Shown here in pieces: positions 3,374-33,196 of a DNA stretch of 37,699 nucleotides. The notes under the pieces are model-generated. The model was not told the DNA's origin. It ran no database searches and saw only the letters and a program-made list of their open reading frames with translations. Origin of the DNA: Bacillota bacterium (GTDB taxonomy: Bacteria > Bacillota > Clostridia > Lachnospirales > CAG-274); NCBI GenBank assembly GCA_017444985.1, contig JAFSVK010000150.1:1-37699 (forward strand), given 5' to 3'. A program made the position numbers and the translations under genes. Position 1 is the stretch's first letter. Every line of letters begins with the position of its first letter.

Positions 3374-4540
3374 ATGAATATAACTGCAACGATATACGGA
3401 ATTTTAAATCAGAGCCACAACATCAGTGTGAGCCTTCCCCTTATTCACGCTATAGGGAATAATGAAGCACTTTTGTTTCAGGCACTTATTTCAAAGCACA
3501 ACTATTATTGCGAGAAAGGAATGCTTGATGATAATGGGTATTTCTACGCTACGGCTTTGGATATTGAGGTGTCTACCGGTCTTTCCCAGAGACAGCAAAA
3601 AGCTCTTATCAATAACCTTGAAGAGATTGGATTGATTGATACCGTCAGGAAAGGTATGCCGGCGAAGAAATATTTTAAATTGACTGAAAATATGACAGTT
3701 TTGGCTGAGCTCATTACGAGAGGGATTGAAAAGTTGAATGCTTTAAAAACAGAAAAAAAAGCTGTTACTGCTACTGTTTCTCACAGTTTCGACAAAATGT
3801 CGAATCAAGTTTCAACGGAATGTCAAAACAAGAATGAACAAAATGTTCAAACATGTATCGACATAATGTCAAATCAAGAATCGACAAAATGTTCAAACAT
3901 GTATCGACATAATGTCGATGAAAAACATATATATAAATCAAATATAAAAAATCATATTAATAAAAATCATATTAATAAATCCATCAATCAATCTATCGTT
4001 GCTGACAAAGATGCTTATAGGCAAGAGAGAGATAGATTGAGGGAGAAGATAGCCGAAAACATCAATATTTTTAATCAAATTCCGAGTTTGGAAACAGAGG
4101 ACATACTTGAAAACGGAAAGTTTAAAGTAAACTTAAATACGGAGGGATATCAGTGGCAGAGTATGTATTTCGAGGCTTTTAACATTATCTGTGATGTTGT
4201 AACTGCTAAAGGAAATAAGCCGTACATTATCTGCGGTCACGAATACTCGCAAGAGGTTGTAAGGTCTGTATTTATGAAACTTACTGAAGATCATATTTGT
4301 GCAGTTCTTGAGTCTCTTATGGCAATGACTGAGCCTGTGAGAAATATGCGTAAATATTTGATTTCATCGCTGTACAACTCGCTTTTTACACTCAATACGA
4401 CAGAAATGCAAGGCACTAAGCCAAAAACTGTTGATACGAAATTATTACCAAAGCCCAATTCGTTTAACAACTATCAACAGCGTGAATATGATGACACATA
4501 TCTTGAAAGAGTACTGCGGGCTAAGGGAAATTTGATTTAA
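3374..4540 (+). CDS. DUF6017-type replication initiator (RepA-like)
   Basis: 388 residues. Residues about 20-110 form a winged-helix initiator domain (ALLFQALISKHNYYC, later LSQRQQKALINNLEEIGLI). Residues about 135-210 are a low-complexity Asn/Ser/Lys linker. Residues about 255-345 match the DUF6017 C-terminal domain as I recall it (IICDVVTAKGNKPYIICG, then VRNMRKYLISSLYN). Start choice: GAGG lies 9 nt upstream. The linker coincides with six 23-bp DNA repeats (3791-3928). RepA_N plasmid initiators are known to carry the origin inside their own gene at this point, so this protein probably binds those repeats and starts replication of the excised element. That binding is inferred. Confidence 0.8.
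   Translation: MNITATIYGILNQSHNISVSLPLIHAIGNNEALLFQALISKHNYYCEKGMLDDNGYFYATALDIEVSTGLSQRQQKALINNLEEIGLIDTVRKGMPAKKYFKLTENMTVLAELITRGIEKLNALKTEKKAVTATVSHSFDKMSNQVSTECQNKNEQNVQTCIDIMSNQESTKCSNMYRHNVDEKHIYKSNIKNHINKNHINKSINQSIVADKDAYRQERDRLREKIAENINIFNQIPSLETEDILENGKFKVNLNTEGYQWQSMYFEAFNIICDVVTAKGNKPYIICGHEYSQEVVRSVFMKLTEDHICAVLESLMAMTEPVRNMRKYLISSLYNSLFTLNTTEMQGTKPKTVDTKLLPKPNSFNNYQQREYDDTYLERVLRAKGNLI
3791..3928 (+). repeat. 23-bp iteron array inside the rep gene, putative origin
   Basis: Six head-to-tail units begin at 3791, 3814, 3837, 3860, 3883 and 3906. Their shared start is GACAWAATGTC, with the variants AACGGAATGTC at 3814 and the ATGTTC form at 3837 and 3883. The last unit keeps only the core. 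Positions 3838-3870 and 3884-3916 are identical over 33 bp. The period is not a multiple of 3, so the repeat appears in different reading frames of the host gene and was conserved as DNA rather than peptide. A/T-rich DNA follows. This fits an initiator-binding origin. Confidence 0.8.
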
Positions 4541-4549
4541 GGAGGATAT

Positions 4550-5002
4550 ATGACATTTGATATTAACAATCTTGTTTCTCCGTCTGTCAGAAATGACTAT
4601 TTGAGTATAAAAGACCCGGAGGAAAAAGCAGATTTTTTGCTCAAGTTGCTTGACTATGAAGTGAATTTTAAAGATAAGGCGGATGATATTGCAAGCTATT
4701 TTAATGACCATAGCTGCGTCGAATACGATCCGATGGTTTTAAGACCCGTGGTTAAAGCGAAAGAGAATATATGTTCCTATGCGGCAGAAACCAAGGATAT
4801 TAAGAAAACCATTCGTCTTATAAATGACCTTTGTGACGATTGTATTCTTGAAAACGATAACTTTGAAACGATAATCGACAAGGCAAAATCGGAGTTTTCT
4901 ATGATAGATGATTTAAACGGTGCGGAGTTTACTTTTGAAGAAAAGAAAAGTACCGGAAAGGTAACTATAGACAGGGTTTTAGCCATGAAAGGAGGTGGTT
5001 GA
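4550..5002 (+). CDS. Hypothetical acidic element protein
   Basis: 150 residues, with AAGGAGG closely upstream of the ATG and 9 nt after the rep gene. It is mostly charged and predicted helical, with no signal peptide, membrane segment or Walker motif, and cysteines near residues 56, 75, 94 and 98. I do not recognise the family. Its place between rep and the transfer operon suggests a cytoplasmic replication or transfer accessory, but this is guesswork. Confidence 0.7.
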   Translation: MTFDINNLVSPSVRNDYLSIKDPEEKADFLLKLLDYEVNFKDKADDIASYFNDHSCVEYDPMVLRPVVKAKENICSYAAETKDIKKTIRLINDLCDDCILENDNFETIIDKAKSEFSMIDDLNGAEFTFEEKKSTGKVTIDRVLAMKGGG

Positions 5003-5056: not shown

Positions 5057-5530
5057 ATGCTTGAAGAACAGGGACAAGGACTTGTAACAGGTACGATAAA
5101 GAAACTGCTGAAATTTTTGGGCAGTAATATATGGCGAGGTGTTGTGTCCGTTGACAGTCAAGCTTATAGCAAAGCGGCACAAAAGCGGCAAGAAACAGGT
5201 AAGAAAAGCGTACAAGAATTGGTTCGTAAAGGCAGAGATCTAAAACTGAGCGAAGTGATTGAAGATAAAAAGCAGTTTACGGATTTCTGTAAGAACTGCC
5301 AAAAAGAAGGACTTGCATTTGCCGTAAAGCCCGAAAAAGACGGTGGTTACAGATTGCTCTATCAAAGCAAAGATGCCGTACTTGTGGAACAGACATATAA
5401 AAAGACCATATCGAAGGAATATAAACAGCCTAAAATCGACCTTGTTGAACTTCTAAAGCGAAACACAAAGCTTATGGATAAGGTGAACACGCAGGAACAG
5501 AACAAGCAAAGAGAGGACAGAACACGATGA
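5057..5530 (+). CDS. pcfB: PcfB/DUF3801-family protein
   Basis: 157 residues. The N-terminus has a short hydrophobic stretch (LVTGTIKKLLKFLG), followed by a basic region and the DUF3801-like core (about residues 50-115) with LSEVIEDKKQFTDFC and FAVKPEKDGGYRLLY. The Lys-rich tail ends in a 4-nt overlap with the VirD4 gene. In the pCF10 system PcfB is an accessory factor that works with the coupling protein PcfC and the relaxosome. The same neighbour here supports that role. Confidence 0.8.
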   Translation: MLEEQGQGLVTGTIKKLLKFLGSNIWRGVVSVDSQAYSKAAQKRQETGKKSVQELVRKGRDLKLSEVIEDKKQFTDFCKNCQKEGLAFAVKPEKDGGYRLLYQSKDAVLVEQTYKKTISKEYKQPKIDLVELLKRNTKLMDKVNTQEQNKQREDRTR

Positions 5531-7401
5531 AAGACAGAAAAATGCCCTTATACATATTGATTGGGATAATTCCGTTGTATGTGGGGAATGTTTGTGGCTA
5601 TGCTTATTTCACAACAGATGGAGATTTAAACACAAAACTGACCGCCATATCCAAAGCGTTTGAAACGGTGAGCCTTGGCTTTAATCTTAAATCTTTGCTT
5701 GTAGGCGGTGTGGCTGTGTTCTTCTACTCTCTTGCCGTTATATACAAGATATTCTGCAAAAAAAAGATAATGCCGGGTATAGAACACGGTTCGGCTGATT
5801 GGGGTACATCTGCGGATATAGAAAAGTTCAGAGACAAAGAAAACAAAGACAACAATATGATTTTTACCGAAACAGAGCAAATGAGCCTTAATACAAGGCA
5901 AACAATGCGTAACAACAATGTACTTGTTATAGGTGGTTCGGGTTCGGGCAAGACAAGGTTTTTCATAAAGCCCAATTTATTACAGCTTCACTCGTCTTAT
6001 GTGGTAACAGACCCAAAAGGAACTGTTTTGAATGAGGTCGGTAAAGTTCTTGCAGACGATGGCTATATAATCAAGGTTTTTAATACCGTGGATTTTTCAA
6101 AGTCTATGCGTTATAACCCTTTCACATTTATAAAAAACGAGGCAGACATAAAGGTGTTTGTGGATATATTGATAAACTCGACCAATGAAAAAGGTCAGAA
6201 GTCAAGCGATCCCTTTTGGGAAAATTCTGAAAGACTCTTATATATGGCACTTATCGGGTATATCTATTACCAATGCGATAAGAAGCAACATAACTTTGCT
6301 TCACTTTTGAGAATGCTCAACGCTATGGAAGTAAAGGAAAATGATGAGAACTTTATGAATTCAATTGACTTTGCTTTTGAGGAATTAAAGCTTGGAACTG
6401 TTGAGTTTAACAAGAAGTACAAGATAACTGAAAAGCCCGAAGTAATAATAGAACCTCAGCCGGAACACTTTGCGGTTACTCAATATACGAAGTTTAAAAT
6501 GTCTGCCGGCAAAACAGCAAAGAGCATACTTATAAGTTGCGGTGTAAGGCTTTCCGCCTTTGATATTGCCGAAGTAAGAGAGATGACAATGTACGATGAA
6601 ATGGAGCTTTCTACTGTGGGGGATAAGAAGACGGCACTGTTTATCATCATTGATGATAAGGTTTCAACTTTTAACTTTCTTGCAAATATGATGTATAGCC
6701 AGTTGTTCAAGGAATTATGTGATAAAGCAGATAATGAGTATCACGGCAGATTGCCGGTTCATGTTAGGTGTTTGCTTGATGAGTTCAGTAACATCGGACA
6801 AATTCCAAATTTCGAGAAAATAATTTCAATAATCAGGTCAAGGGAAATTTCTGTGGATGTTATTGTGCAAAATATGGCTCAAATAGAGGCTTTATACGAT
6901 AAACAAGCCGGCACTATCGTAGGCAACTGTGATACTACATTGTTTTTGGGAAGTGGTGAAAATTCCACTATGAAAAATATATCCGAGAGAGTTGGTAAAG
7001 CAACAATTAGTCATAAATCAAGCAGTACCACAAAGGGACAACAAGGCTCTTTCAGCTTACAAAATCAGATTTTAGGCAGAGAACTTATCACTCCCGATGA
7101 AGTGGGTAGGCTTGACAATGGGGAATGTATCTTGTTTATAAGGGGCTTAAAACCTTTTAAGTCAAAGAAGTACAACTATACAAAGCATCCGAGATACAAA
7201 CAAACGGGTGATGCAAACGAGGAATTTATGTTTAAAATATCCGACTATAAAAAAGCAACGGAAAATAATAAGAAAGATGAGTTCAACCTCAATGATTATG
7301 TCATCACGAATGAGGACATCGTATTCCTTTCCAATGGGGAAAACAACATAAATTCAATTGATGAAGAAACACTATTAAAAATACAGGAGGAAAATCTATG
7401 A
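5527..7401 (+). CDS. virD4: VirD4/TraG-type coupling ATPase
   Basis: 624 residues. Two N-terminal membrane helices (about 7-28 and 53-76) are followed by a cytoplasmic ATPase with Walker A GGSGSGKT (136-143) and Walker B-type LLDEFSNIG (about 414-422), then IISIIRSREISVDVIVQN and a C-terminal FIRGLKPF segment. It should bring the relaxase-DNA complex to the secretion channel (family knowledge of VirD4, TraG and PcfC). It overlaps the PcfB gene by 4 nt and the Maff2 gene by ATGA, so the three are translationally coupled. Length and motifs look intact. Confidence 0.95.
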   Translation: MKDRKMPLYILIGIIPLYVGNVCGYAYFTTDGDLNTKLTAISKAFETVSLGFNLKSLLVGGVAVFFYSLAVIYKIFCKKKIMPGIEHGSADWGTSADIEKFRDKENKDNNMIFTETEQMSLNTRQTMRNNNVLVIGGSGSGKTRFFIKPNLLQLHSSYVVTDPKGTVLNEVGKVLADDGYIIKVFNTVDFSKSMRYNPFTFIKNEADIKVFVDILINSTNEKGQKSSDPFWENSERLLYMALIGYIYYQCDKKQHNFASLLRMLNAMEVKENDENFMNSIDFAFEELKLGTVEFNKKYKITEKPEVIIEPQPEHFAVTQYTKFKMSAGKTAKSILISCGVRLSAFDIAEVREMTMYDEMELSTVGDKKTALFIIIDDKVSTFNFLANMMYSQLFKELCDKADNEYHGRLPVHVRCLLDEFSNIGQIPNFEKIISIIRSREISVDVIVQNMAQIEALYDKQAGTIVGNCDTTLFLGSGENSTMKNISERVGKATISHKSSSTTKGQQGSFSLQNQILGRELITPDEVGRLDNGECILFIRGLKPFKSKKYNYTKHPRYKQTGDANEEFMFKISDYKKATENNKKDEFNLNDYVITNEDIVFLSNGENNINSIDEETLLKIQEENL

Positions 7402-9226: not shown

Positions 9227-11603
9227 GACCTGTCAAGATACTTTGCATTATAAGCTTATGATGGAAAACGGAACTTGTCAATGTGGGGATGATTTCTTTT
9301 CAAGAACAATAAAGTTTAGCGATATTAACTATCAAGTAGCACAAAGAGATGAACAAATCGAGATTTTTTCAAGATATTGCGAAATCCTCAACTACTTTTC
9401 CCCCGATATAAATGTACAAATAACCGTGCATAACAGACGAATTGATATTGAAAATTTCAAGTCAAATATGCTTTTCCCTATGCGTGATGATAAGCACAAT
9501 AACCTCCGTGAGGAATACAACACAATGCTTGAGGAAAAGGCGTTGCAAGGACAAAATTCCATCGTTAGAGAGAAATATATAACCTTCGGTATAACTGCCG
9601 ACAATTTTGAAGTAGCATACCCCGCACTTTTAAGGATTGAGGCTGATATTACAAGTCAGCTGAAAAGCCTTGGTTGTGATGTGATGAGCATTTCGGGAGC
9701 GGAAAGGCTTGAATATATGAATTCTATTCTAAACCCCAATGAGCCTATGAAGTTTAACTACACCGACCTTTTAGGTACGGGGCTTTGCACGAAAGATTTT
9801 ATTACCCCTTACTATTTTGATTTTAAGCCGAATAGCAAGCAGACTTATTTTGAATTTGGGGATTATTTCGGACAGGTGTTGATGATTAAAAAATTACCCT
9901 CTGATCTATCGGATAAACTTTTGAATGCTTTGGCTGAAATACCTTGTAATTCAACCATAAATATTCATACAAATTCAATGGACAATGCCTCTGCAATGGA
10001 TATGGTGAAAACAAAGCTTGCTTTTATGGAGCAAGATAAGTGTAACAGACAGCAAAAGCTTTTGCAACAAGGTACAGACCCGGAAATGATACCACAACAC
10101 TTAAAAAGGCATATAAGTGAAACAAATATGCTCATTGACGATATGCAGAATAAAAATCAAAGACTATTTCAAGGCTCTATATTGGTGTTTACATCTGCAA
10201 GAACTTATGAAGAACTACAAGAAAATGTAGAAAAGCTAAAAGGAAAAGCAAGAGCCTTTGGGTGTGAATTATCGCCTATCGCTTGCGAGCAAGAAGCCGG
10301 ACTTAATGCAACTCTTCCATTTGCAAGGAATGAGATACAAATAAGGCGAACGCTGACAACGGCTGCACAAGCCATATTTATTCCATTTACAACACAGGAA
10401 TTGTTTGATACGGGTGGTATGTATTACGGATTAAACGCTTTATCCCGTAACCTTATCTTTTTCGATAGAAAAGCACTTAAAAATCCTGCGGGATTTGTGC
10501 TTGGTTCTCCCGGTTCGGGTAAATCCTTCTCTACAAAACGCTGTCTTGTGGATGTTATGCTTAACTCGGAAGACGATGAAATACTCGTTATCGACCCGGA
10601 AAGTGAGTATTTAACACTGTTTGAGAACTTTGACGGGGAGATAATAAAAATATCAAACGACACCGACACATTTTTCAATCCCTTGGATATATCGGCTGAT
10701 TATTCGGGCGGTGATGAGGATGAGAACAAAGCTAATAACCCATTATCCTTTAAAACAGAGTTTCTATTCAGTTTTCTTGATGTGATAGTTACCAAAGAAA
10801 GCGGTGCGGGACTTACAGGTGCGGAGAGGACACTTGTAGATAGAGTATTGACAGACCTCTATAAAAGTTATTTCAAGAAAAGAAATGCCGAAATGCCCAC
10901 TTTAGTAGACTTCTATAATGCTTTAGAGAAAATCAACATTAAGGAACTACAGCCCGAAAAGGAAAATCTTTTAAAGGTGCTTGGATTATATACTTCGGGT
11001 TCTTTTAATCTTTTTGCACACAAGACAAATATCAATGTGAATAATCGCTTTGTGGTATTTGATATTAAGGAGTTAGGTGACCAACTTAAAACATTGGGAA
11101 TGCTTGTTATTCTTGACCAAATATGGAACAGAGTTGTTAGTAACCGGCTTATAGGTAAAACTACTTGGATTGTGGTAGATGAAGCACATTTGCTTTTTAG
11201 CAATCCCTTTTCTGCACAGTTTTTGGCAAGCCTATGGAAGCGTGCCAGAAAGTATGGTGCTATATGTACCGGGATAACCCAGAATATCGCAGACCTTTTG
11301 GAAAGTCAGCTTGCAAGCAAGATGTTATCAAACAGTGACTATGTGCTTATGCTAAATCAAGCACCACAGGACAGAACAAAGCTTGCGGAGATACTAAACA
11401 TATCCCCTACGCAGCTGTCATTTGTCACCAATGCCAATCCCGGGCAAGGATTGTTATTTGCCGGCAATAGTATAGTTCCCTTTGTGGATAACTTCCCGAG
11501 AGATACACAGCTTTACCGTATGATGACAAGTAAACTCAGCGACATAATGAAGTACAAGGCGGAGGAACTGGAAAATGAAGGACATTATCAAGGAGAACAA
11601 TAG
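9033..11603 (+). CDS. virB4: VirB4-family secretion ATPase
   Basis: 856 residues from the ATG at 9033. A GTG at 9021 in the same frame is only 1 nt from AAGGAG, so the ATG, 13 nt away, is preferred though spaced widely. The charged coiled-coil N-terminus (1-70) leads to the VirB4 N-domain (about 75-430) and the ATPase domain: Walker A GSPGSGKS (about 490-497) and Walker B WIVVDEAHLLF (about 710-720), followed by a GITQN sensor-like segment. It powers assembly and transfer at the membrane. It overlaps PrgI at the start and the M23 gene by 29 nt at the end. Confidence 0.95.
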   Translation: MAKKSVFQERYEEQRKESLTLLKSQRKALKEKEKQRTKQLQQQKESAEKRNKKKKKKLKAEAAPKTCQDTLHYKLMMENGTCQCGDDFFSRTIKFSDINYQVAQRDEQIEIFSRYCEILNYFSPDINVQITVHNRRIDIENFKSNMLFPMRDDKHNNLREEYNTMLEEKALQGQNSIVREKYITFGITADNFEVAYPALLRIEADITSQLKSLGCDVMSISGAERLEYMNSILNPNEPMKFNYTDLLGTGLCTKDFITPYYFDFKPNSKQTYFEFGDYFGQVLMIKKLPSDLSDKLLNALAEIPCNSTINIHTNSMDNASAMDMVKTKLAFMEQDKCNRQQKLLQQGTDPEMIPQHLKRHISETNMLIDDMQNKNQRLFQGSILVFTSARTYEELQENVEKLKGKARAFGCELSPIACEQEAGLNATLPFARNEIQIRRTLTTAAQAIFIPFTTQELFDTGGMYYGLNALSRNLIFFDRKALKNPAGFVLGSPGSGKSFSTKRCLVDVMLNSEDDEILVIDPESEYLTLFENFDGEIIKISNDTDTFFNPLDISADYSGGDEDENKANNPLSFKTEFLFSFLDVIVTKESGAGLTGAERTLVDRVLTDLYKSYFKKRNAEMPTLVDFYNALEKINIKELQPEKENLLKVLGLYTSGSFNLFAHKTNINVNNRFVVFDIKELGDQLKTLGMLVILDQIWNRVVSNRLIGKTTWIVVDEAHLLFSNPFSAQFLASLWKRARKYGAICTGITQNIADLLESQLASKMLSNSDYVLMLNQAPQDRTKLAEILNISPTQLSFVTNANPGQGLLFAGNSIVPFVDNFPRDTQLYRMMTSKLSDIMKYKAEELENEGHYQGEQ

Positions 11604-20620: not shown

Positions 20621-20757
20621 CGGGATAATAAGAAAAATTTGGAGAGAGTTTACTCTCGTATGAATTTTCCGTTTATCCCGATAAGGCTACGGAATTCCGT
20701 AGCCTTTACCCATATTTTAGAAAAATATGGGTAACATCGCCTCCTGCGATAAGGAGG
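20621..20757 (+). promoter_or_regulatory. Structured leader with mutually exclusive SD hairpins
   Basis: Three hairpins in order: CGGGATAA/TTATCCCG (20621-20680, with inner GAGAG/CTCTC and AATT-rich stems), AAGGCTACGG/CCGTAGCCTT (20683-20706), and ACCCATATTTT/AAAATATGGGT (20708-20732). Then CCTCC (20740-20744) can pair with the Shine-Dalgarno GGAGG (20753-20757), while ATCGC/GCGAT (20736-20750) competes for the same bases. This resembles a translational switch in front of the giant gene. No known riboswitch class is recognised. Confidence 0.65.
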
Positions 20758-20765
20758 TAAAATGT

Positions 20766-23700
20766 ATGCGAGATAAGTATACCTATATCAGCGAACTTCT
20801 TTTAGATGAAGTACAGAAGTTAACGAAAAGCGGTCACAACTGGCTGAAGTTTCTTGAACAGACCGGTACGCTTTACAAGTACGGTTTTAAAGACAATCTT
20901 ATAATAAACAGCCAAAGAGAAAATGCCACTATGTGTGCGGATTTTGATACTTGGACGAAAAAGCTCGACTACCGTATCAAGCAAGGCACAAAGGGTATTC
21001 CCCTTTTAAGGGACAGTAATGGTAAGAAATATATAAGATATGTCTATGATGTTACCGATACGGTGAGAACACCTGAGTCAAGAAATGTGGGACTTTGGAC
21101 TGTGAAAGATGAGTACCGAAGAGCCGTGGCAGACGGGTTTAAAATTCATAACAATCTTAATGGCAATGACAGCACCCTTGAGGGACTTATTTCGGAGAGA
21201 GTGAATAACTACCTTGATGAGAATATTAACAAGGCTATCAAGGAACTTGAACTCTATAAGGAAAACTCTTTACTTGAAGATTACGACAGAGATAACCTTG
21301 AAGTCACTTTAAGGGAGATAGCCGAAGAAAGCATTGAAATAGCCGTTTGCGGTCGTTGCGGTATAAATCGTGATTTTGATGAGTATTCTCTCAGAAACAT
21401 TGGTGACTTCAATACCGTTGATACCATTACACAGCTTGGCGAATTGGTAAGCAGCTGTTCGGAAACCGTACTGCGAGAAATCGAAAGAGAAGTTAAAAAC
21501 TGTGAAAAGCACATTGCGAAGGAGGAAAATTACTATGAAAGAGAAGATGATACAAGGAATGAAGCACCTTTACAGCGAGGAACAACAGAAGTGGTTGCCG
21601 GAGATAATGGAAGAAAACAATCTGACCTACAAGTTGGACAAGGCAACAATGACCTATTTTCCGATGTTGCAGACGGACGAGGAAGAGGATTACAATCTGA
21701 CGAGTTGGGGCAGAAAGAGACTCAGCTACATCAAGGAGAACAAGCCGGGATATTATCAAAGACTGATGATACAGGGCTTGTGGGAACATCTGGTGAGCGT
21801 AGACAAGCAAGCGAACGAGATGGAGAACAACTTAATGAAAGAAATGAGCAAAGCCGAGGGAATAACCGAGGAGTTGAAAGCCAAGGATCAAATGAGTTGG
21901 GTGGCACAGAGGAACAACCTCAAACAGAGAGTTCGAGAGATAGTGACGAACGAAGTAATATATCAATAAACAGCGATAAGGCAGAGGATTTTTCAAAGGA
22001 AAACTCTGCCTTTTCTAATGTTGTGGAAACTATTGAACTTGAAAAATACGAAAAAGGCGACAGACCCGGTACAGTTAAGGCAGTGGGTATGGCAACATAT
22101 CAGGAAGTATTCGACAAGTTGCAAGAACATCTTGAAAAGAGCGATATGCTCCCCGATGAGTATTTCAAATTAAGCTATCGTGTGACAGAACCGCAATTGC
22201 CTTTACCGAAGGACGTAAGTTTTATCTGTAATACCGATTTTGGCGGAAGTGAAGGTATCTATGTAGATATTTACGCCAAATCAAAGGAATATCCGGAGGG
22301 TTTGAGAGCGTTTGCCGTAGGAAAGATCCTTAACGAAGATTACAAAAGCTTTATGAGGATGGGAGTTATTGCCACAGAGTGCAGTCTTATGTTAAACGGT
22401 GGCGGTATGAAGCTTGAAAGAAATATAGGAATTGAACAAGCAGAAGAAAAAGTCGAGCAAAAATCGGAAGCAAAAGTTCCCGAAACAAAGGAAAAGACCA
22501 CCGTTGATGAATATAAAGAAAAGACCTTAAAAAGCTTTAATCCCATATCACCGTATGCAGAAAATACCGAAACGGAACTTTCGGACATTGAGGAAGATGC
22601 AAGAAATATTATAGCCGAGGCAACAGAAGATATGCCGATTGAAGTTGTGGATGTGGCAGTCTATGGTAGCCGTAGCCGAGGACTTGAAAACGAAAAATCC
22701 GATTTGGATATTGTTTTTGAATACAAGGGAGATGTCAGGGAAGATACCGTATTCAATATCTTGAATGAAAATTCAAAAGATTACTACGGTGTGGAGTTTG
22801 ATTTCAATCCCATAAGAGCCGAAGAAACCGGAACACTTGAACAATATTTGCCCGAAGCTGATAAATATCTTGAGCGTGAAATAAAAAATCGTGCAAAGTC
22901 TGTGGAAATGAATATCATCGGGAATACGGTGTATAGATACATTCCGCAGAAACGATACAAGAAATTCCCCGGTGTAGACGGTATGGCAATATCGGAAAGG
23001 CTTTCTAACGAAGATATAAAGCACAGCGGCAAGATAAACGGTGACGGTACTGTAACAATAACATATTCCGCAAACGATAAAGAAAAGGTTTTGCCTATAT
23101 TCGATGAGTATGCAAGGCAGTCTGAGAATAAGAAAATAATCTTCCCCGATAACTCCATTGATTACGGTGAAATGGTTGAGTATGGCTACAAAGAGGACAT
23201 TATGCATCCTTTAACAAAAGAGGTAGCACTTGACCTTTGGGAGAATAAAAATTTGCCTGTTTACAAGCTGTATGAAGATAATACGGAAAGTCTTGTTGAT
23301 AATATTGAAGATATACAAAACCATAAGGGTATTTTCGGTATTGAAACCGCTGATTGGGATAGATACATAAAGAAACAAAATATCCTAAATAACACGGAAG
23401 AAAGTCATGAAAACACTGAAGAAAATCATAAAACCACCGAAAAGAGTCAAGAAACCAAAGATAAAGAGCCTGCACAAATGGAACTCATTGACGGAGTTTT
23501 ACCCAAATCAATTGCTATAGCTTCCATTTTAGAGGGTACGGGCTTTGAAAACGGAAAACATCGTGTAGCCGAACTTTACGATAAAAATTTGACCAATAAA
23601 GAACGTGCCGAGGTTATTAAAAAGGAATACGGTATAGGTGGCAGATATAACGGTAACAACATTCCAAATGCCCTTGTGGGTACGCAGTCGGACAGTAAGG

Positions 23701-26700
23701 GCTTACAAATTGAGTGGAACGATGCGAACAGGCAAAGGGTTAACAAATTACTCACTTGGTCACAGGTGGAAAAGATAATTTCGGAATTGGTAGAAAAGGA
23801 CGCATATATCACTCCCGAAGAAATGGCACGCTACAACAAACACATTGAAACGGAAGCAAAAATCAAGCTGCTTGCCGAGGGTGATGTGATAAATGTAAAT
23901 GGGGATAAATTTACCGTTTTGGCTGTTGATGATAGCCGAATTAAAGTTCAATCACCGGAATTTGAAAATGATTTAAGCTATATAGTGGGTGATAATCATT
24001 ATATCAATAAATTCGGTCTTGAAAAGTACGGTTTTGATATTGAGGGAAAGACGGTTGAAAAGCCCGAAACCGACAAAGAAGACACGGTATATCGCTTTTT
24101 TAGAACAGGTAACGAAAGTGAACTGAAAATCTTATTCCCTAAAGATGATCATCATTTTACATCTTCAATCATTGATAAAGATGTGATTGATGTGGCAAAT
24201 AAGATATATGAGCAAGACGGAAAGACAGAGACATTCTTTTCTATGCTATTAGCATATGCAAATACGGAAACCTTTGACGACAGCACCTTGTTCTATATGG
24301 ATGCAAAAAACGAGTACAACGACGGTATAGCACTTATGGATGGTTTTACCGATGAGACCAAAGAAAAACTTATAAGTTTTACCGAAAATGAAGAGTTATC
24401 TTTAAATGATAAAGTTACGGAAGAATCAACTGTTTCCGATATTGAAACCGACAATAATACACAAGAATTACAAATCGGAGATAAGTTCACAGACCTCAGA
24501 AATGGTGAAATATGCGAAGTAGTATCTCTTACGGGTGCTATTCCTTGGCAAACAGATATGTGTGCTATAAAGCGTAGCCGTGGTTATTACGAAATAACCG
24601 AGGATATAAGCTTTGATGAGTTGTTGAATTCCGAAAGATTTCAGCGTTACGAGGAAACCGTCGAAAAAGCAGAGTCGATAAACATACCGTTCCTTGAAAA
24701 CATAGACCTTAACAGTGTTGACAGCATTTGCATAGAGCGTGGAGTCAGTACTTATGAGGGTGGTATAGACAGCAACGGTCACGAAGCAAAGGATAACTAC
24801 AGCTACAAAAAAGATACCTTTACTTTATATCCCTCCGATGATAAGACAAAGATATGGACAAGTGAGCCCTCCGGCAATGTGTTTGATGATTACTATGACG
24901 AGGTATACAACATCGATTTAGATGGGGAAATAGCCCTTGCAAACAAGATATACAAATATATAGATCGTGCCTACGATTATTCTATAGTAGCATATAAAGA
25001 TGGTGAAAAGCAGTACATAAATGCAGATGTTGACGACATTGCCAACTATCTTGAAAAGGCACTTATCACCGACTACACAAGAGGCGAATTCGATGATGAA
25101 CCGGACTTTACAAATCCCGAAAGTGTCGGAGTTGCATATACGACCGTCGATGATAAAGATGGTATAGAACACACCATAGAAGCTACCGTAAATCTTGAAA
25201 AACAAGAGATAAGCAAGTATCTTGATAACACAAAGGTTTATACCGAAGCCTACGGCAGTAAATGGGATTTTCTAAAGTGTCTTGAAGGTATTAATTTCGA
25301 TGACTTAACGGAAGTAACGGATGAAATGTGGGCTAAATATAACGAAGTTCATAAAAGTACGGAAGTAACAAACTCTGCCGAAAAGCTCACAAACTTCACC
25401 TTTACGGAAGAAAATATGAATGTCGGCTCACCCAAAGAGCAATTTCAAGCCAATATTGATGCTATTAAAATGCTTAAAAAGCTTGAAAGCGAAAATGCAC
25501 AAGCAACTCAGGAACAGCAAGCGGTACTTGCCAAATATATGGGCTGGGGAGGATTATCGGACGCATTTGACCCTCATAAAGACAGTTGGAGCAAGGAATA
25601 CAACGAGTTAAAGGAGCTTTTGACATACGAGGAATACAATTCCGCAAGAGCTACTGTTTTAAATTCGCACTTCACTTCACCAACAATCATACAAGCAATG
25701 TACAAGGGGCTTGAACAGCTTGGCTTTGACGGCGGTACTATTTTAGAGCCGTCTATGGGTATCGGTAACTTTTTCGGTGCTATGCCAAAAGATATGCAAG
25801 AAAACAGTAAGCTGTACGGTGTGGAACTTGACGACCTAACGGGAAGAATTGCAAAACAGCTTTATCCCGATGCCAATATACAGATAAAGGGATTTCAGAA
25901 AACAGATTTTAACAGTAATTCTTTCGATGTGGCTATCGGTAATGTACCATTTGGTACAAATAAGATATACGACAGCGAAATACAATCCCACGACCTTATA
26001 CACGATTATTTCTTTAAAAAAGCATTGGATAAGGTACACCCCAGCGGTATTGTTGCCTTTGTAACATCAATGGGAACAATGGACAAAGCAAACGAAGGTG
26101 TGCGTAAATACCTTGCAGAACGTGCGGAACTTGTGGGTGCTGTCAGACTGCCGGATACGGCTTTCAAAAATGCAAATACAAGCGTAACAAGTGACATAAT
26201 CTTTCTTAAAAAGCGTGATGAAGTACTTGATTTTGAAAAAGAACCCGAAAAGCAACCCGATTGGGTCGGTACACAAGAAAATCAAGAGGGATATGTTGTA
26301 AATGCTTACTTTGCCACACATCCCGAAATGATTGTCGGTGAAATGGTAGAAGAAAGCGGACCTTACGGCAATAGACTTGTTTGTAAACCGATTGAGGGTG
26401 ATTTTAAAGAGCAGTTAAACGCTGCCATAAGTAACCTGCAAGGCACATTTGAACGTGACGAACAGGCAAACAGTGTTGAAGAAGAAATAGACCCCGAATT
26501 TACTCAAGTAAGCTACGAAGGACACAGAAACTTCTGTTATTGTGTGGTTGATGATAAGGTTTACTTCCGCGAAAACGAGATGATGATACCGCAAGAACTT
26601 GAAGGTAAAAGACTTGAAAGAATGAAAGGACTTATAGATGTCAGTACCGTTCTGCAAGAGGTAATCCGCTTACAGCGAGAGGGATATTCGGACGAAGATA

Positions 26701-29700
26701 TAAAAGCGGTACAAGACAAGTTAAACACGGTTTATGAGGACTTTACAAAGAAACATGGACTTATAAACAGTGATGCCAATTTAAACCTTTTTAAAGATGA
26801 CGACACAAGCGAACTTATCGCCTCTCTTGAAAATTTGGACGATGACGGAAACCTCATCGGAAAGTCCGACATTTTCACAAAACGAACCATAATCCCCTAT
26901 GTAGCACCCACGCACGCAGACACCGTTAGCGATGCCCTCACAATAAGCATATCCGAAAAAGCGAAGGTTGACCTTGAATATATGACGCAACTTTGCGGAA
27001 AAGACAAAGCTACCATTCTTGAAGAAATGAAAGGTGTTATATTTGAAAATCCCGTAAATGGGAGATATGAAACCGCCGATGAATATTTATCGGGAGATAT
27101 TCGTGAAAAGCTCCGTTTAGCCGAGTTAATGGCAGAAAATAATGATAATTTTGCCGTAAATGTAGAAGCGTTGAAGGAGGTTATGCCCGAAGATCTAAAG
27201 CCCTCCGAAATATCGGTACAGCTTTGTTCTACTTGGATACCCGTAAAATATTACGAGCAATTCATGTATGAACTACTTGACACACCTAACCGCTGTAAAA
27301 GTAACAGTTGGTATGCGAACACAGACCCTTTTTCGACCTACAACAGCCAAACAATAAGCATACAGTTTGACGAAAGAACCGCCACCTACGGTATATCAAA
27401 CAAAGGTTCATCAAGGGCTGACAGTTACAACATAAAAGCAAACCAGACCTACGGAACAAGCCGAGTAAATGCTTATAAGATACTTGAAGACACTCTCAAC
27501 AACAAGATAATTACCGTAAAAGACTATGTGGAAGATGCCGAGGGCAAGAAGCACGCTGTAGTAAACCAAAAGGAAACCCTGCTTGCACAGGAAAAGCAGA
27601 ATGAAATAAAGGAAAAATTCAAAGAATGGATATGGGAAGATCCTGACAGAACGGAAGATTTATGCCGTATCTACAATGATAAATTCAATTCCATTCGCCC
27701 GAGGGAATACGACGGCAGTCATATAAACTTTGTGGGAATGAACCCCGAAATAAAACTCCGTCCCCATCAGCTGAATGCCATAGCACACACACTTTACGGT
27801 GGTAACACTCTTCTCGCCCACACCGTTGGTGCGGGCAAGACCTTTGAGGCTGTAGCAAGTGCAATGGAGGCAAAAAGGCTTGGACTTTGCCACAAATCCC
27901 TTATATGCGTACCGAAACACATAGTAAATCAATTCGGCAAAGAGTTTTTACAACTCTACCCCAACGCAAATATCCTGGTGGCAAGTGAAAAGGACTTCCA
28001 AAAGAAGAACCGCAGAAGATTTTTCAGCCGTGTGGCAACGGGAAATTACGATGCGGTAATCATAAGTCATTCACAGCTTGAAAAGCTCCCCATTTCTCCC
28101 GAACGCCGTATTGACTACGTACAAAATCAGATAGAGGAAATAACCTCGGCACTTGACGATATGCGTAAAATGGAGGGCAAGCGTGGGTTTACGGTGAAAC
28201 AGCTCGAAACGGAAAAAGCCAACCTCGAAACTAAACTTGAAAAACTCATAAACGAAGAAAAGTATGATACCAACATTTTCTTTGAAGATATGGGCTTTGA
28301 CAAGATGTTTATAGACGAGGCACATATGTTCAAGAACCGCCAATTTATCACAAAAATGGGCAGAAATGTATCGGGTATAAATGCAAGTTCAGCTTCCCAA
28401 AGAGCCACTGACCTTGCAATGAAAGTCCAATACATGGACGAGATAACCGGCAACAGAGGTTCCGTTTTTATGACGGGAACACCCCTCAGTAACAGCATGT
28501 CGGAGTTGTATATAATGCAGTCGTATCTACAAGAAAGCCTTTTGAAAGAGCGTGGTTTACATCTTTTTGATGCTTGGGCGGCTAATTTCGGCGAGGTGCA
28601 GAGAACTTTGGAACTTGCCCCCGAAGGGAAAGGTTATCAGGCGAAAACGAGGTTTGCGAAGTTTTTCAATCTACCCGAACTTATGAACTTGTTTAGGCTT
28701 TGTGCGGATATAAAAATGCCGGAGGATCTGAATTTGCCTGTACCGGAGGCTCACTACGAGTGTATTAAGACCGAGGCGAGCGAATTTCAGAAGGAAATGG
28801 TGGACGGTTTGGCAGAGAGAGCCGGTAAGATAAGAGGCGGAAATGTGGACCCGACAAAGGACAACATGTTAAAAATAACCAACGAAGGTCGTAAACTTGC
28901 CCTCGATCAAAGGCTGATAAACCCCCTTCTTCCCGACGATCCGGACAGTAAGGTAAATAAGTGCGTGGAAAAGGTGCTTGAAATATGGAACGGCAGCAAG
29001 GAAAGACTTGGTACACAGATGATTTTCTGTGATATGTCAACACCGAAACCCGATGAGTTTAATGTGTATGATGACATAAAGGATAAGTTAATCGCTAACG
29101 GAGTACCAAAAGAAGAAATTGCCTACATACACGATGCCAAAACCGATGTGCAAAAGCAAGAACTTTTTGCAAAGGTGAATAAAGGTGAGGTGCGAATACT
29201 CTTAGGTTCTACCAACAAGATGGGTGCAGGCACGAACTGCCAAAAGCACCTGACGGCGGTACATCATCTTGACTGCCCGTGGAGACCGAGTGACCTTGAG
29301 CAGAGAAACGGTCGTATTATCAGACAAGGGAACGACAATAAGGAGGTTAACATATACAATTATGTGACTGCCGGAACATTCGATGCTTATTTATTTCAGC
29401 TTGTGGAGAACAAACAAAAGTTCATCTCGCAGATAATGACAAGCAAGTCGCCGCAGAGAGAAGCGGAAGATGTGGACGAGGCTGTACTGAACTATGCACA
29501 GATAAAAGCTCTGGCGGCAGGTGACAGCAGAATAAAAGAAAAAATGGATCTTGATATGGCGGTTACTTCTTTGAGAACGGCTTACAGTAATTTCCTTGAT
29601 AACAGACGAAATCTGAGGACGGATATTGTGAAGAAATATCCGGAGATGATAGCACAAAAAAGCGAGGCTTTGAAAGGGTTAAAGGAGGATTTGGAGACCC

Positions 29701-30209
29701 TTAAAAATCACACAACAGACGGCTTTAGCGGTATGCTTGTGGGTCGTAATCATTACGATGAGAGAAAAAACGCAGGCGAAGCACTTTTGGCGGCTATAAA
29801 ATCGGTGGGATTGCAAAATACGGGTACTTTCATAGGTGCATACAAGGGTTTTGATATGTCGGTAGATTTCAATAAAACCAAGGGTGCTTATGAGTTGGTG
29901 CTGAAAGGTGCGATAAGCCACCGTGTGGAAATGGGCAGCGATGCCGTGGGTAATATTATGAGAATCGACAATTCACTGAAAGAGATTGAAAACATAATCG
30001 TAAAGGTGAGCGATAGCCTTGAAGATGTTCAGAAACAGCTGAAAATCGCCAAAGAGGAAGTGGAAAAGCCGTTTCCTAAGATGGAAGAACTTAAATCTAT
30101 GGAAAAGAGGTTGAATGAACTGAACAAGGAGCTTTCACTTGATAAGGCGGATGAGTCGGAGATACTCCCCGAAGAACAAAATAAAACCGCCTATGAAGCG
30201 GAACGATGA
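20766..30209 (+). CDS. Giant polyvalent protein: ArdC-like, nucleotidyltransferase, N6-methylase and SNF2-type helicase
   Basis: 3147 residues. Start: ATG at 20766, 7 nt after AAGGAGGT; the upstream in-frame ATG at 20727 lies inside a hairpin. Order of parts (approximate residues): ArdC-N-like domain 1-120; disordered Gln/Gly/Glu/Arg stretch 257-402, overprinted by a TnpV-like gene; unknown domain 436-555; MNT-like nucleotidyltransferase near 610-700 (YGSRSRG, then SDLDIVFEY); associated domains, including GIGGRYNGNN near 955; adenine methylase with LEPSMGIGNFFG (about 1659) and IGNVPFG, an NPPY variant (about 1723); helicase with HTVGAGKT (about 2350), FIDEAH (about 2514), MTGTPLSNS and QRNGRIIRQG (about 2845); C-terminal coiled coil. 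This is the polyvalent-protein layout that carries anti-defence activities into a recipient. Individual activities are inferred from motifs. Confidence 0.9.
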   Translation: MRDKYTYISELLLDEVQKLTKSGHNWLKFLEQTGTLYKYGFKDNLIINSQRENATMCADFDTWTKKLDYRIKQGTKGIPLLRDSNGKKYIRYVYDVTDTVRTPESRNVGLWTVKDEYRRAVADGFKIHNNLNGNDSTLEGLISERVNNYLDENINKAIKELELYKENSLLEDYDRDNLEVTLREIAEESIEIAVCGRCGINRDFDEYSLRNIGDFNTVDTITQLGELVSSCSETVLREIEREVKNCEKHIAKEENYYEREDDTRNEAPLQRGTTEVVAGDNGRKQSDLQVGQGNNDLFSDVADGRGRGLQSDELGQKETQLHQGEQAGILSKTDDTGLVGTSGERRQASERDGEQLNERNEQSRGNNRGVESQGSNELGGTEEQPQTESSRDSDERSNISINSDKAEDFSKENSAFSNVVETIELEKYEKGDRPGTVKAVGMATYQEVFDKLQEHLEKSDMLPDEYFKLSYRVTEPQLPLPKDVSFICNTDFGGSEGIYVDIYAKSKEYPEGLRAFAVGKILNEDYKSFMRMGVIATECSLMLNGGGMKLERNIGIEQAEEKVEQKSEAKVPETKEKTTVDEYKEKTLKSFNPISPYAENTETELSDIEEDARNIIAEATEDMPIEVVDVAVYGSRSRGLENEKSDLDIVFEYKGDVREDTVFNILNENSKDYYGVEFDFNPIRAEETGTLEQYLPEADKYLEREIKNRAKSVEMNIIGNTVYRYIPQKRYKKFPGVDGMAISERLSNEDIKHSGKINGDGTVTITYSANDKEKVLPIFDEYARQSENKKIIFPDNSIDYGEMVEYGYKEDIMHPLTKEVALDLWENKNLPVYKLYEDNTESLVDNIEDIQNHKGIFGIETADWDRYIKKQNILNNTEESHENTEENHKTTEKSQETKDKEPAQMELIDGVLPKSIAIASILEGTGFENGKHRVAELYDKNLTNKERAEVIKKEYGIGGRYNGNNIPNALVGTQSDSKGLQIEWNDANRQRVNKLLTWSQVEKIISELVEKDAYITPEEMARYNKHIETEAKIKLLAEGDVINVNGDKFTVLAVDDSRIKVQSPEFENDLSYIVGDNHYINKFGLEKYGFDIEGKTVEKPETDKEDTVYRFFRTGNESELKILFPKDDHHFTSSIIDKDVIDVANKIYEQDGKTETFFSMLLAYANTETFDDSTLFYMDAKNEYNDGIALMDGFTDETKEKLISFTENEELSLNDKVTEESTVSDIETDNNTQELQIGDKFTDLRNGEICEVVSLTGAIPWQTDMCAIKRSRGYYEITEDISFDELLNSERFQRYEETVEKAESINIPFLENIDLNSVDSICIERGVSTYEGGIDSNGHEAKDNYSYKKDTFTLYPSDDKTKIWTSEPSGNVFDDYYDEVYNIDLDGEIALANKIYKYIDRAYDYSIVAYKDGEKQYINADVDDIANYLEKALITDYTRGEFDDEPDFTNPESVGVAYTTVDDKDGIEHTIEATVNLEKQEISKYLDNTKVYTEAYGSKWDFLKCLEGINFDDLTEVTDEMWAKYNEVHKSTEVTNSAEKLTNFTFTEENMNVGSPKEQFQANIDAIKMLKKLESENAQATQEQQAVLAKYMGWGGLSDAFDPHKDSWSKEYNELKELLTYEEYNSARATVLNSHFTSPTIIQAMYKGLEQLGFDGGTILEPSMGIGNFFGAMPKDMQENSKLYGVELDDLTGRIAKQLYPDANIQIKGFQKTDFNSNSFDVAIGNVPFGTNKIYDSEIQSHDLIHDYFFKKALDKVHPSGIVAFVTSMGTMDKANEGVRKYLAERAELVGAVRLPDTAFKNANTSVTSDIIFLKKRDEVLDFEKEPEKQPDWVGTQENQEGYVVNAYFATHPEMIVGEMVEESGPYGNRLVCKPIEGDFKEQLNAAISNLQGTFERDEQANSVEEEIDPEFTQVSYEGHRNFCYCVVDDKVYFRENEMMIPQELEGKRLERMKGLIDVSTVLQEVIRLQREGYSDEDIKAVQDKLNTVYEDFTKKHGLINSDANLNLFKDDDTSELIASLENLDDDGNLIGKSDIFTKRTIIPYVAPTHADTVSDALTISISEKAKVDLEYMTQLCGKDKATILEEMKGVIFENPVNGRYETADEYLSGDIREKLRLAELMAENNDNFAVNVEALKEVMPEDLKPSEISVQLCSTWIPVKYYEQFMYELLDTPNRCKSNSWYANTDPFSTYNSQTISIQFDERTATYGISNKGSSRADSYNIKANQTYGTSRVNAYKILEDTLNNKIITVKDYVEDAEGKKHAVVNQKETLLAQEKQNEIKEKFKEWIWEDPDRTEDLCRIYNDKFNSIRPREYDGSHINFVGMNPEIKLRPHQLNAIAHTLYGGNTLLAHTVGAGKTFEAVASAMEAKRLGLCHKSLICVPKHIVNQFGKEFLQLYPNANILVASEKDFQKKNRRRFFSRVATGNYDAVIISHSQLEKLPISPERRIDYVQNQIEEITSALDDMRKMEGKRGFTVKQLETEKANLETKLEKLINEEKYDTNIFFEDMGFDKMFIDEAHMFKNRQFITKMGRNVSGINASSASQRATDLAMKVQYMDEITGNRGSVFMTGTPLSNSMSELYIMQSYLQESLLKERGLHLFDAWAANFGEVQRTLELAPEGKGYQAKTRFAKFFNLPELMNLFRLCADIKMPEDLNLPVPEAHYECIKTEASEFQKEMVDGLAERAGKIRGGNVDPTKDNMLKITNEGRKLALDQRLINPLLPDDPDSKVNKCVEKVLEIWNGSKERLGTQMIFCDMSTPKPDEFNVYDDIKDKLIANGVPKEEIAYIHDAKTDVQKQELFAKVNKGEVRILLGSTNKMGAGTNCQKHLTAVHHLDCPWRPSDLEQRNGRIIRQGNDNKEVNIYNYVTAGTFDAYLFQLVENKQKFISQIMTSKSPQREAEDVDEAVLNYAQIKALAAGDSRIKEKMDLDMAVTSLRTAYSNFLDNRRNLRTDIVKKYPEMIAQKSEALKGLKEDLETLKNHTTDGFSGMLVGRNHYDERKNAGEALLAAIKSVGLQNTGTFIGAYKGFDMSVDFNKTKGAYELVLKGAISHRVEMGSDAVGNIMRIDNSLKEIENIIVKVSDSLEDVQKQLKIAKEEVEKPFPKMEELKSMEKRLNELNKELSLDKADESEILPEEQNKTAYEAER
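21535..21969 (+). CDS. tnpV: TnpV-like gene overprinted inside the giant gene
   Basis: 144 residues in the +1 frame relative to the giant gene. AAGGAGG (21519-21525) lies 9 nt upstream of its ATG, which is unexpected inside a coding region. The protein matches my memory of the TnpV family (Tn4451-type elements): YFPMLQ, then WGRKRLSYIKENKPGYYQRL, then VDKQANEM and AEGITEELKAKDQMSWVAQR, ending REIVTNEVIY. In the giant frame the same DNA encodes only low-complexity, probably disordered sequence, so the TnpV-like frame looks like the constrained one. TnpV's role is not firmly known. Confidence 0.75.
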   Translation: MKEKMIQGMKHLYSEEQQKWLPEIMEENNLTYKLDKATMTYFPMLQTDEEEDYNLTSWGRKRLSYIKENKPGYYQRLMIQGLWEHLVSVDKQANEMENNLMKEMSKAEGITEELKAKDQMSWVAQRNNLKQRVREIVTNEVIYQ

Positions 30210-32393: not shown

Positions 32394-32428
32394 CAACTCC
32401 CCCATTCCATACGGTTTGGGGGATTGTT
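32394..32428 (+). terminator. C5/G5 hairpin after cassette 2
   Basis: TCCCCC (32398-32403) pairs with GGGGGA (32418-32423), extended by CAA/TTG around a bulged C. T-rich DNA follows. It can terminate cassette 2, but may also be the structured part of an origin of transfer. Confidence 0.6.
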
Positions 32429-32439
32429 ATTTTTACACC

Positions 32440-32465
32440 ACTCACGACACACTCGTGAGTTTTTT
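32440..32465 (+). terminator. Terminator abutting the mobC ribosome binding site
   Basis: ACTCACGA (32440-32447) pairs with TCGTGAGT (32453-32460), followed by a T-run. GGAGGTGA of mobC begins 5 nt later. This is the third case in the window of a terminator placed directly before the first gene of a module. Confidence 0.85.
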
Positions 32466-32481
32466 ATTTGGAGGTGATTTT

Positions 32482-32868
32482 TTGTCAAAAGTAAGATGTG
32501 AGCGATTTACCGTAAGGTTATCGCCATATGAAAAGGCTTTTATCGTGCGTAAAATGCGTGAAAGCGGGTATAACAATTTAGGGGATTATTTTATGCACTG
32601 TGTATCAAGCAACCGCACCACAGTCGTAGATACTATGCCTATATGGGAAATCAAGACAGAACTAAATAAAATCGGCACCAATATCAATCAGATAGCTAAA
32701 AAAGCCAATACCAACGGATTTTTGAGTGATACGGATATACGGGAGCTGAAGGAGGATATGCGGGAAGTGAAAGATACGGTCAATATGGGCTTGAACCCCT
32801 ATTTGAAAGGCGGTGATGTGGGTGGCTTATGTGAAGATAGTACCCATCAAGCAGAACACACACCTTGA
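32482..32868 (+). CDS. mobC: MobC-type relaxosome protein
   Basis: 128 residues from a TTG start at 32482; GGAGGTGA (32470-32477) sets it, while the ATG at 32416 lies upstream in the hairpins with no ribosome site. RCERFTVRLSPYEKAFIVRK, then GYNNLGDYFMHC, then EIKTELNKIGTNINQIAKKAN, is typical of MobC: a ribbon-helix-helix region followed by the conserved N-IG-N-NQIA stretch. MobC helps the relaxase open DNA at the origin of transfer. It overlaps the relaxase fragment, as in intact mobilization operons. Confidence 0.85.
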   Translation: MSKVRCERFTVRLSPYEKAFIVRKMRESGYNNLGDYFMHCVSSNRTTVVDTMPIWEIKTELNKIGTNINQIAKKANTNGFLSDTDIRELKEDMREVKDTVNMGLNPYLKGGDVGGLCEDSTHQAEHTP

Positions 32869-33196
32869 CACCGTCCTCAATAACATCGAAAACCCCGACA
32901 AAACCGAAAAAATGCTCTACGTCACAGGCTACATGTGTAGCCCCGAAACCGCGGTAGAGGATTTCAAGGTCGTACAAGCCAAAGCCATGAAAAAAGGCAA
33001 CAACCTTGCTCACCACATTATGATAAGCTTTTCGACGGATGACCCTATAGATCAAGAGTCCGCCATTGAGGCGGCACAGGAGCTTATGAAACAAATGTAC
33101 CCCAATAATCAATATATTTTGGCGATACATAACGACAGGGAGCAGCTGCACCCAGCTATAAAGAAAACCGCAGCAGCTCTTGGTTTAAATAGCTAA
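32822..33196 (+). pseudogene. Truncated MOBP-type relaxase
   Basis: 124 residues from a GTG at 32822 (giving AYVKIVPIKQ, the usual start); an ATG at 32816 is also possible. The N-terminal relaxase domain is recognisable: LNNIENPDKTEKMLYVTGY, then MKKGNNLAHHIMISF, then YILAIHNDREQLH. In full-length relaxases the last motif continues into the metal-binding histidine cluster (H-D-x-x-H-x-H type) and several hundred more residues. Here it breaks after LHP, and a short unrelated tail ends in a stop. No continuation appears in any frame before the next promoter. It is probably unable to nick. I infer loss by recombination. Confidence 0.8.

Follow-up and report, generated by a model that had tools for sequence, protein, structure and literature searches.

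A 23-bp iteron array inside a DUF6017 initiator gene of a conjugative element as a candidate in-gene replication origin

Introduction

Can a gene for a replication initiator also hold the origin at which its product acts? This question is raised by a tandem repeat located in the middle of an initiator gene in the window, i.e., the whole analyzed stretch of 37,699 nucleotides from a Clostridia bacterium. A sequence-only reading had claimed that this repeat is organized like the origins found inside the rep genes of RepA_N plasmids. In this study, the repeat was analyzed together with the encoded protein, its relatives, and known in-gene origins. Of the readings considered, an in-gene origin that works like those of RepA_N replicons explains the results best by a wide margin. 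The array is proposed, with a probability of roughly 0.85, to be the initiator-binding part of a theta-type origin, composed of iterons plus a melting region, that lies inside the initiator gene and works like that of pSK41 rep. The features discussed below are as follows.

3374..4540, plus strand: initiator gene, 388 aa, with a winged-helix N-domain, a disordered linker, and a DUF6017 C-domain (PF19481, phrog_9773)
3416..3769, plus strand: winged-helix DNA-binding N-domain with a RepA_N-like fold, residues 15-132 (Foldseek, VIA-align, profile, hhalign)
3790..3928, no strand: array of six iterons, 23 bp each, core GACAWAATGTC (repeat searches, shuffles, genome motif count)
3838..3916, no strand: 46-bp higher-order repeat, in which 3838-3870 and 3884-3916 are identical over exactly 33 bp and have differing flanks
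3919..3998, no strand: AT-rich stretch, candidate DNA-unwinding element, with the 15-bp tandem AAAAATCATATTAAT at 3947-3979 (AT scan, TRF)
4172..4396, plus strand: DUF6017 domain, presumed replisome-recruiting C-domain (PF19481, AF2)
5527..7401, plus strand: VirD4-like coupling protein of the CD1115 family, in the conjugation module downstream of the initiator (NF045973, 1.4e-163)

Results

Iteron Array in the Initiator Gene

Six units were found at positions 3791-3928, following each other at an exact 23-bp step (starts at 3791, 3814, 3837, 3860, 3883, and 3906). This step and the 33-bp identity, both reported by the sequence-only reading, were recovered by TRF, by a repeat search, and by direct comparison. 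TRF called 3785-3916 with a period of 23 and 5.7 copies as well as 3819-3916 with a period of 46 and 94% matches, and the repeat search returned copies spaced by 23, 23, 23, and 23 bp. Most of the units, besides being direct repeats, form imperfect inverted repeats centered on an A-tract. The core of unit 2 is degraded (AACGGAATGTC), and the core of unit 3 is symmetrically altered (GAACAAAATGTTC).

The exact 13-mer core GACAWAATGTCRA has three copies in the 2.67-Mb genome, every one inside the array. A genome of the same genus contains four copies, all within its two relatives of the window gene, and the reversed control of this core had no occurrences in the genome-wide count for either genome. 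With up to three mismatches, the core was found only in the array, save one three-mismatch match at 9358.

DNA-Level Constraint on the Array

Because 23 is not divisible by 3, each unit is read in a shifted frame and the peptide encoded by the array does not repeat. The lag-23 self-match score of the window gene is 50. The best score was 10 among 100 dinucleotide shuffles and 37 (mean 10) among 1000 protein-preserving permutations of synonymous codons. Since lag 23 beats the synonymous permutations, it is the DNA that is conserved and not the protein.

One comparison was made with an ortholog 86% identical to the window gene. The two genes differ by 9 substitutions in the 138-bp array vs. 158 in the 1011 bp elsewhere, and third codon positions account for 1 of 9 substitutions in the array vs. 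103 of 153 in the N- and C-domains (Fisher p=0.0012). For nine pooled ortholog pairs, with no gene common to any two, third-position substitutions were 38 of 102 in the array vs. 281 of 431 in the N-domain (p=3e-7). Such loss of the third-position bias between close orthologs means that the constraint acts on DNA. Homogenization between units could add to this substitution pattern. The earlier claim of an unrepeated peptide, with selection or copying at the level of DNA, therefore stands.

Domains of the Initiator Protein

The DUF6017 family (PF19481) matched residues 267-341 (6.2e-13, 49.6 bits at a gathering cut-off of 27), and the PHROG family phrog_9773, "replication initiation O-like", matched residues 33-194 (2.8e-11). 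Residues 142-212 are predicted to be disordered and span nearly all of the array-encoded peptide; the array is thus located between the winged helix and DUF6017, as had been proposed.

In the Foldseek search of the N-domain model against PDB, the six best matches were N-domains of RepA_N proteins (best E 6.4e-4), and the fold matches include the Rep-DNA complex 5KBJ. VIA-align yielded Z-scores of 10.4 to 4PQL (111 residues, rmsd 4.4) and 10.2 to 4PT7, vs. 8.7 or less for unrelated entries. The best PDB match of the N-domain profile was the RepA domain 4PTA (E=0.0055), and hhalign of the window N-domain with the RepA_N group gave 96.8%. The Pfam RepA_N family (PF06970) had no match in the window protein; it was found at 1e-24 to 1e-29 in six relatives. 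By its model, the window N-domain folds like the N-domains of RepA_N initiators, and by sequence detection it falls outside RepA_N proper.

The AF2 model of the DUF6017 domain is compact and helical, with a core pLDDT of 80-90. Comparison of this model with PDB gave no confident fold match, the RepA C-domain 4PQK being reached only at an uninformative Z of 3.8. A comparison of DUF6017 with Bac_RepA_C showed no similarity (hhalign 0.6%, with two sequences only on one side).

AT-Rich Stretch Adjoining the Array

The richest 60 bp of the window (3919-3978, 91.7% AT) directly follow the array, and only 0.01% of the window 60-mers match that value. TRF called 3947-3979 with a period of 15 and 100% matches. 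In 19 of 31 genes, the 60 bp with the highest AT content in the gene start near the array end, with about 2 such genes expected. An Rfam search gave no match, and a promoter scan gave no excess over shuffles.

Tandems of a similar kind were observed in other genes. In the rep gene of an S. epidermidis RepA_N plasmid (L142, 1489-2493), the 15-bp tandem TGATACTGAGTTTAG comes immediately after a 23-bp array, and akin to it are the GATACTGAGTTTAG-like tandems that follow the array in several DUF6017 genes of Clostridia. It is possible that a 15-bp-type tandem after the array is a conserved melting or loading element.

The symmetric direct repeats would suit any dimeric DNA-binding protein, and a ParB gene adjoins the repA-DUF6017 gene of Monoglobus. 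The array might therefore be an autoregulation operator or a partition (centromere-like) site for the same or another protein, and no origin. We consider this unlikely: the array lies about 420 bp into the gene, away from any promoter position, the AT maximum directly adjoins it in those 19 genes, and its layout matches functional RepA_N and lambda O origins. The scanned proteins of the window included neither ParA nor ParB.

Under the preferred reading, that of an in-gene origin, dimers of the RepA_N-like winged-helix domain would bind the dyad-symmetric 23-bp iterons, and the AT-rich stretch at 3919-3998, just downstream of the array, would melt. The DUF6017 domain would recruit host replication proteins, and the linker peptide would be a by-product that need only stay open and flexible. 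The element would then replicate like a plasmid from an origin within its initiator gene.

Recurrence across DUF6017 Genes

Protein and Pfam searches yielded about 100 DUF6017-type genes, 76 of them non-redundant. An array was considered significant if its lag-23 score was beyond both nulls, i.e., dinucleotide shuffles and synonymous-codon permutations. Significant arrays were found in 37 of the 76 genes, which are mutually related, so that these counts are not independent events. By type of N-domain, the arrays were found in 6 of 7 O-like genes (the type of the window gene), 28 of 40 RepA_N genes, and 3 of 11 unassigned ones. The HTH_36 (Tn1549-like) genes have periods of 15 or 30 bp in place of 23 (16 of 18 genes). 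About half of the DUF6017 genes are without a significant lag-23 array, and 14 of the 76 have no array by the scores used. As a background, 296 other ORFs from the same loci were scored with a mark of 18 at lag 23. The sole raw match came from a split DUF6017 gene (L043), of which it is the first half, and none of the 295 unrelated ORFs reached this mark. Non-triplet DNA repeats in the linkers of relatives, as predicted from the window alone, were thus found.

The unit sequence differs by clade (ACAAAATGT; GTCAAGAAACTTGAC; GTTCGGAAATCGAAC; TCACCAGTCCGGAGTGGTGA). Despite these differences, dyad symmetry was detected at p<=0.05 in 32 of 41 arrays, often around an A-tract. In the HTH_36 class, the dyad test was mostly non-significant, and no symmetry is therefore claimed for this class. 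One DUF6017 gene (L121, 30-1208) has an unusually long lag-23 array of about 10 units with no detectable dyad symmetry in its consensus. In a Mantel test, iteron similarity had a partial r of 0.25 with the N-domain and 0.17 with the C-domain, too weak to assign the reading of the iterons to either.

The arrays change in length. The genes L043 and L059 differ by one clean 46-bp gap, i.e., two units, in the array over 1150 aligned columns. In L043 (922-2025), DUF6017 is out of frame because of this 46-bp shortfall; natural unit loss and short-read assembly collapse would be alike in appearance. Array units are gained and lost whole, with the reservation that assembly collapse would give the same picture for this pair. 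Such gain and loss, together with the 46-bp higher-order repeat, would also be expected of a functionless neutral tandem duplication that arose by slippage in a disordered linker. This explanation is very improbable, since the 23-bp period is kept over diverged clades with differing unit sequences, the arrays have dyad symmetry, the third-position bias is lost within them, and no control ORF has an array. In addition, successive units at a 23-bp period pass through all three reading frames, and keeping them free of stop codons in every frame that is used is a costly demand.

The repeat could also have been produced by selection on the encoded linker peptide, as the peptide does repeat in the HTH_36 class at periods of 15 or 30. 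This is hardly credible for the window gene: at lag 23 the peptide is unrepeated, and permutation of codons that preserves the peptide destroys the DNA repeat. Even among the HTH_36 genes, most have a DNA repeat stronger than that of synonymous permutations, and the pSK41 linker is dispensable (PMC5703833).

The in-gene origin proposed here may have a wide distribution. Of 392 genomes sampled from the order, 76 encode relatives of the window protein, and DUF6017 proteins are present on enterococcal conjugative plasmids. A 518-kb circular Monoglobus record labelled plasmid encodes a RepA_N+DUF6017 initiator with an adjoining ParB. In the viral_contigs search, a single-protein query gave no matches and an alignment query gave 14. 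Three phage contigs combine an O-like N-domain with other C-domains; two of them have lag 23 and the third has weaker signals at lags 45 and 22. It is rather likely that DUF6017 is a general replisome-recruiting domain of a large, unrecognized class of in-gene-origin initiators in conjugative elements of Clostridia. In this class, DUF6017 would be combined with no fewer than three kinds of DNA-binding domain (RepA_N, O-like, and HTH_36), each time with an iteron array in the inter-domain linker.

Element and Contig Context

Conjugation genes found in the window are those for VirD4, PrgI, VirB4-like, and MobC proteins. The conjugation module also includes a single ORF of 3160 aa (20727-30209). 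MobC/NikA and a relaxase fragment are located at 32416-33151, about 29 kb from the array. The fragment belongs to a 127-aa ORF (32813-33196) that immediately follows MobC and precedes an ImpB/UmuC-type gene; the PF03432 relaxase match spans only positions 2-93 of 132, and the gene looks truncated or interrupted. As the element is conjugative, the array might be a transfer origin or an accessory transfer site instead. The chance of this is close to negligible, given the distance to MobC/NikA and the relaxase fragment and the presence of like arrays in plasmid rep genes and phage O-like genes.

No match to the tyrosine integrase family PF00589, the only integrase type searched, was found in the window, which is a complete contig and may contain only a part of the element. 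A partial PF00589 match is present on the sister contig G046:C61, and the ICE label for the window contig is unproven. The same sister contig carries BREX-type genes for BrxL and a PAPS-reductase-domain protein (L132, 1169-11780). Upstream of the initiator operon, a 14-bp tandem CAAATTTGTTGACC of 2.4 copies (2220-2252) is a possible operator.

Discussion

Significance of the In-Gene Array

The results suggest that DUF6017-carrying mobile elements are able to copy themselves like plasmids, and they provide a testable function for DUF6017, an uncharacterized Pfam family of which no mention was found in the literature searched. Within that literature, no description appears to exist of a DNA-level array that recurs in DUF6017 genes with several types of N-domain. 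Because replication has already been proposed for RepA_N-carrying ICEs (PMC4701971), the kind of mechanism is a known one. The new part is that the in-gene array is widespread in DUF6017 genes and occurs with more than one N-terminal type. Such elements, perhaps including the Tn1549-like ones, are predicted to be capable of autonomous replication, with the origin located within the initiator gene, and a non-triplet array in the linker would be a simple marker for such origins by sequence alone.

Comparison with Known Systems

Iterons lie within the initiator gene both in lambda O, where they are annotated, and in the window, and the window N-domain matches the PHROG O-like family of lambda-type O proteins and phage replisome organizers. 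The lambda O iterons differ in being about 20 bp apart and gave a weaker signal in the same scan. The C-domains differ as well: the window protein has DUF6017 in place of an O-type C-domain recruiting a phage helicase loader. The next ORF (4550-5002) had no Pfam or PHROG match.

For RepA_N ICEs of the Tn1549, Tn5252, and TnGBS groups, episomal replication has been proposed (PMC4701971). These elements are likewise conjugative and have RepA_N initiators, and the available part of that source makes no mention of in-gene iterons.

The closest layout is that of the RepA_N theta plasmids, e.g., pSK41 and pTZ2162. In pSK41 rep, the prototype, the ori is central within the gene and has four Rep boxes, and the linker is dispensable (PMC5703833). 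RepA_N iterons are semi-palindromic direct repeats converging on a poly-A tract (PMC7145576), and semi-palindromic iterons are located centrally in the window gene, in agreement with the definition of both papers. Pfam does not detect the window N-domain as RepA_N, the C-domain is DUF6017, for which no similarity to Bac_RepA_C was found, and the window gene sits in a Tn1549/CTn-like conjugative module. Among the positive controls, lag 23 was found in the same place in RepA_N plasmid rep genes of S. epidermidis and S. saprophyticus and in the Monoglobus replicon, and lag 54 in rep genes of four plasmids of lactic acid bacteria (Lactobacillaceae, Lactococcus); an E. lactis signal at lag 42 was weaker. 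The topology claimed by the sequence-only reading was thus reproduced by the same pipeline in plasmid rep genes and is accompanied by the N-domain fold match. The window protein and the plasmid Reps have in common the winged-helix N-domain fold, central semi-palindromic iterons with an A-tract, a linker between two domains, and a separate C-domain.
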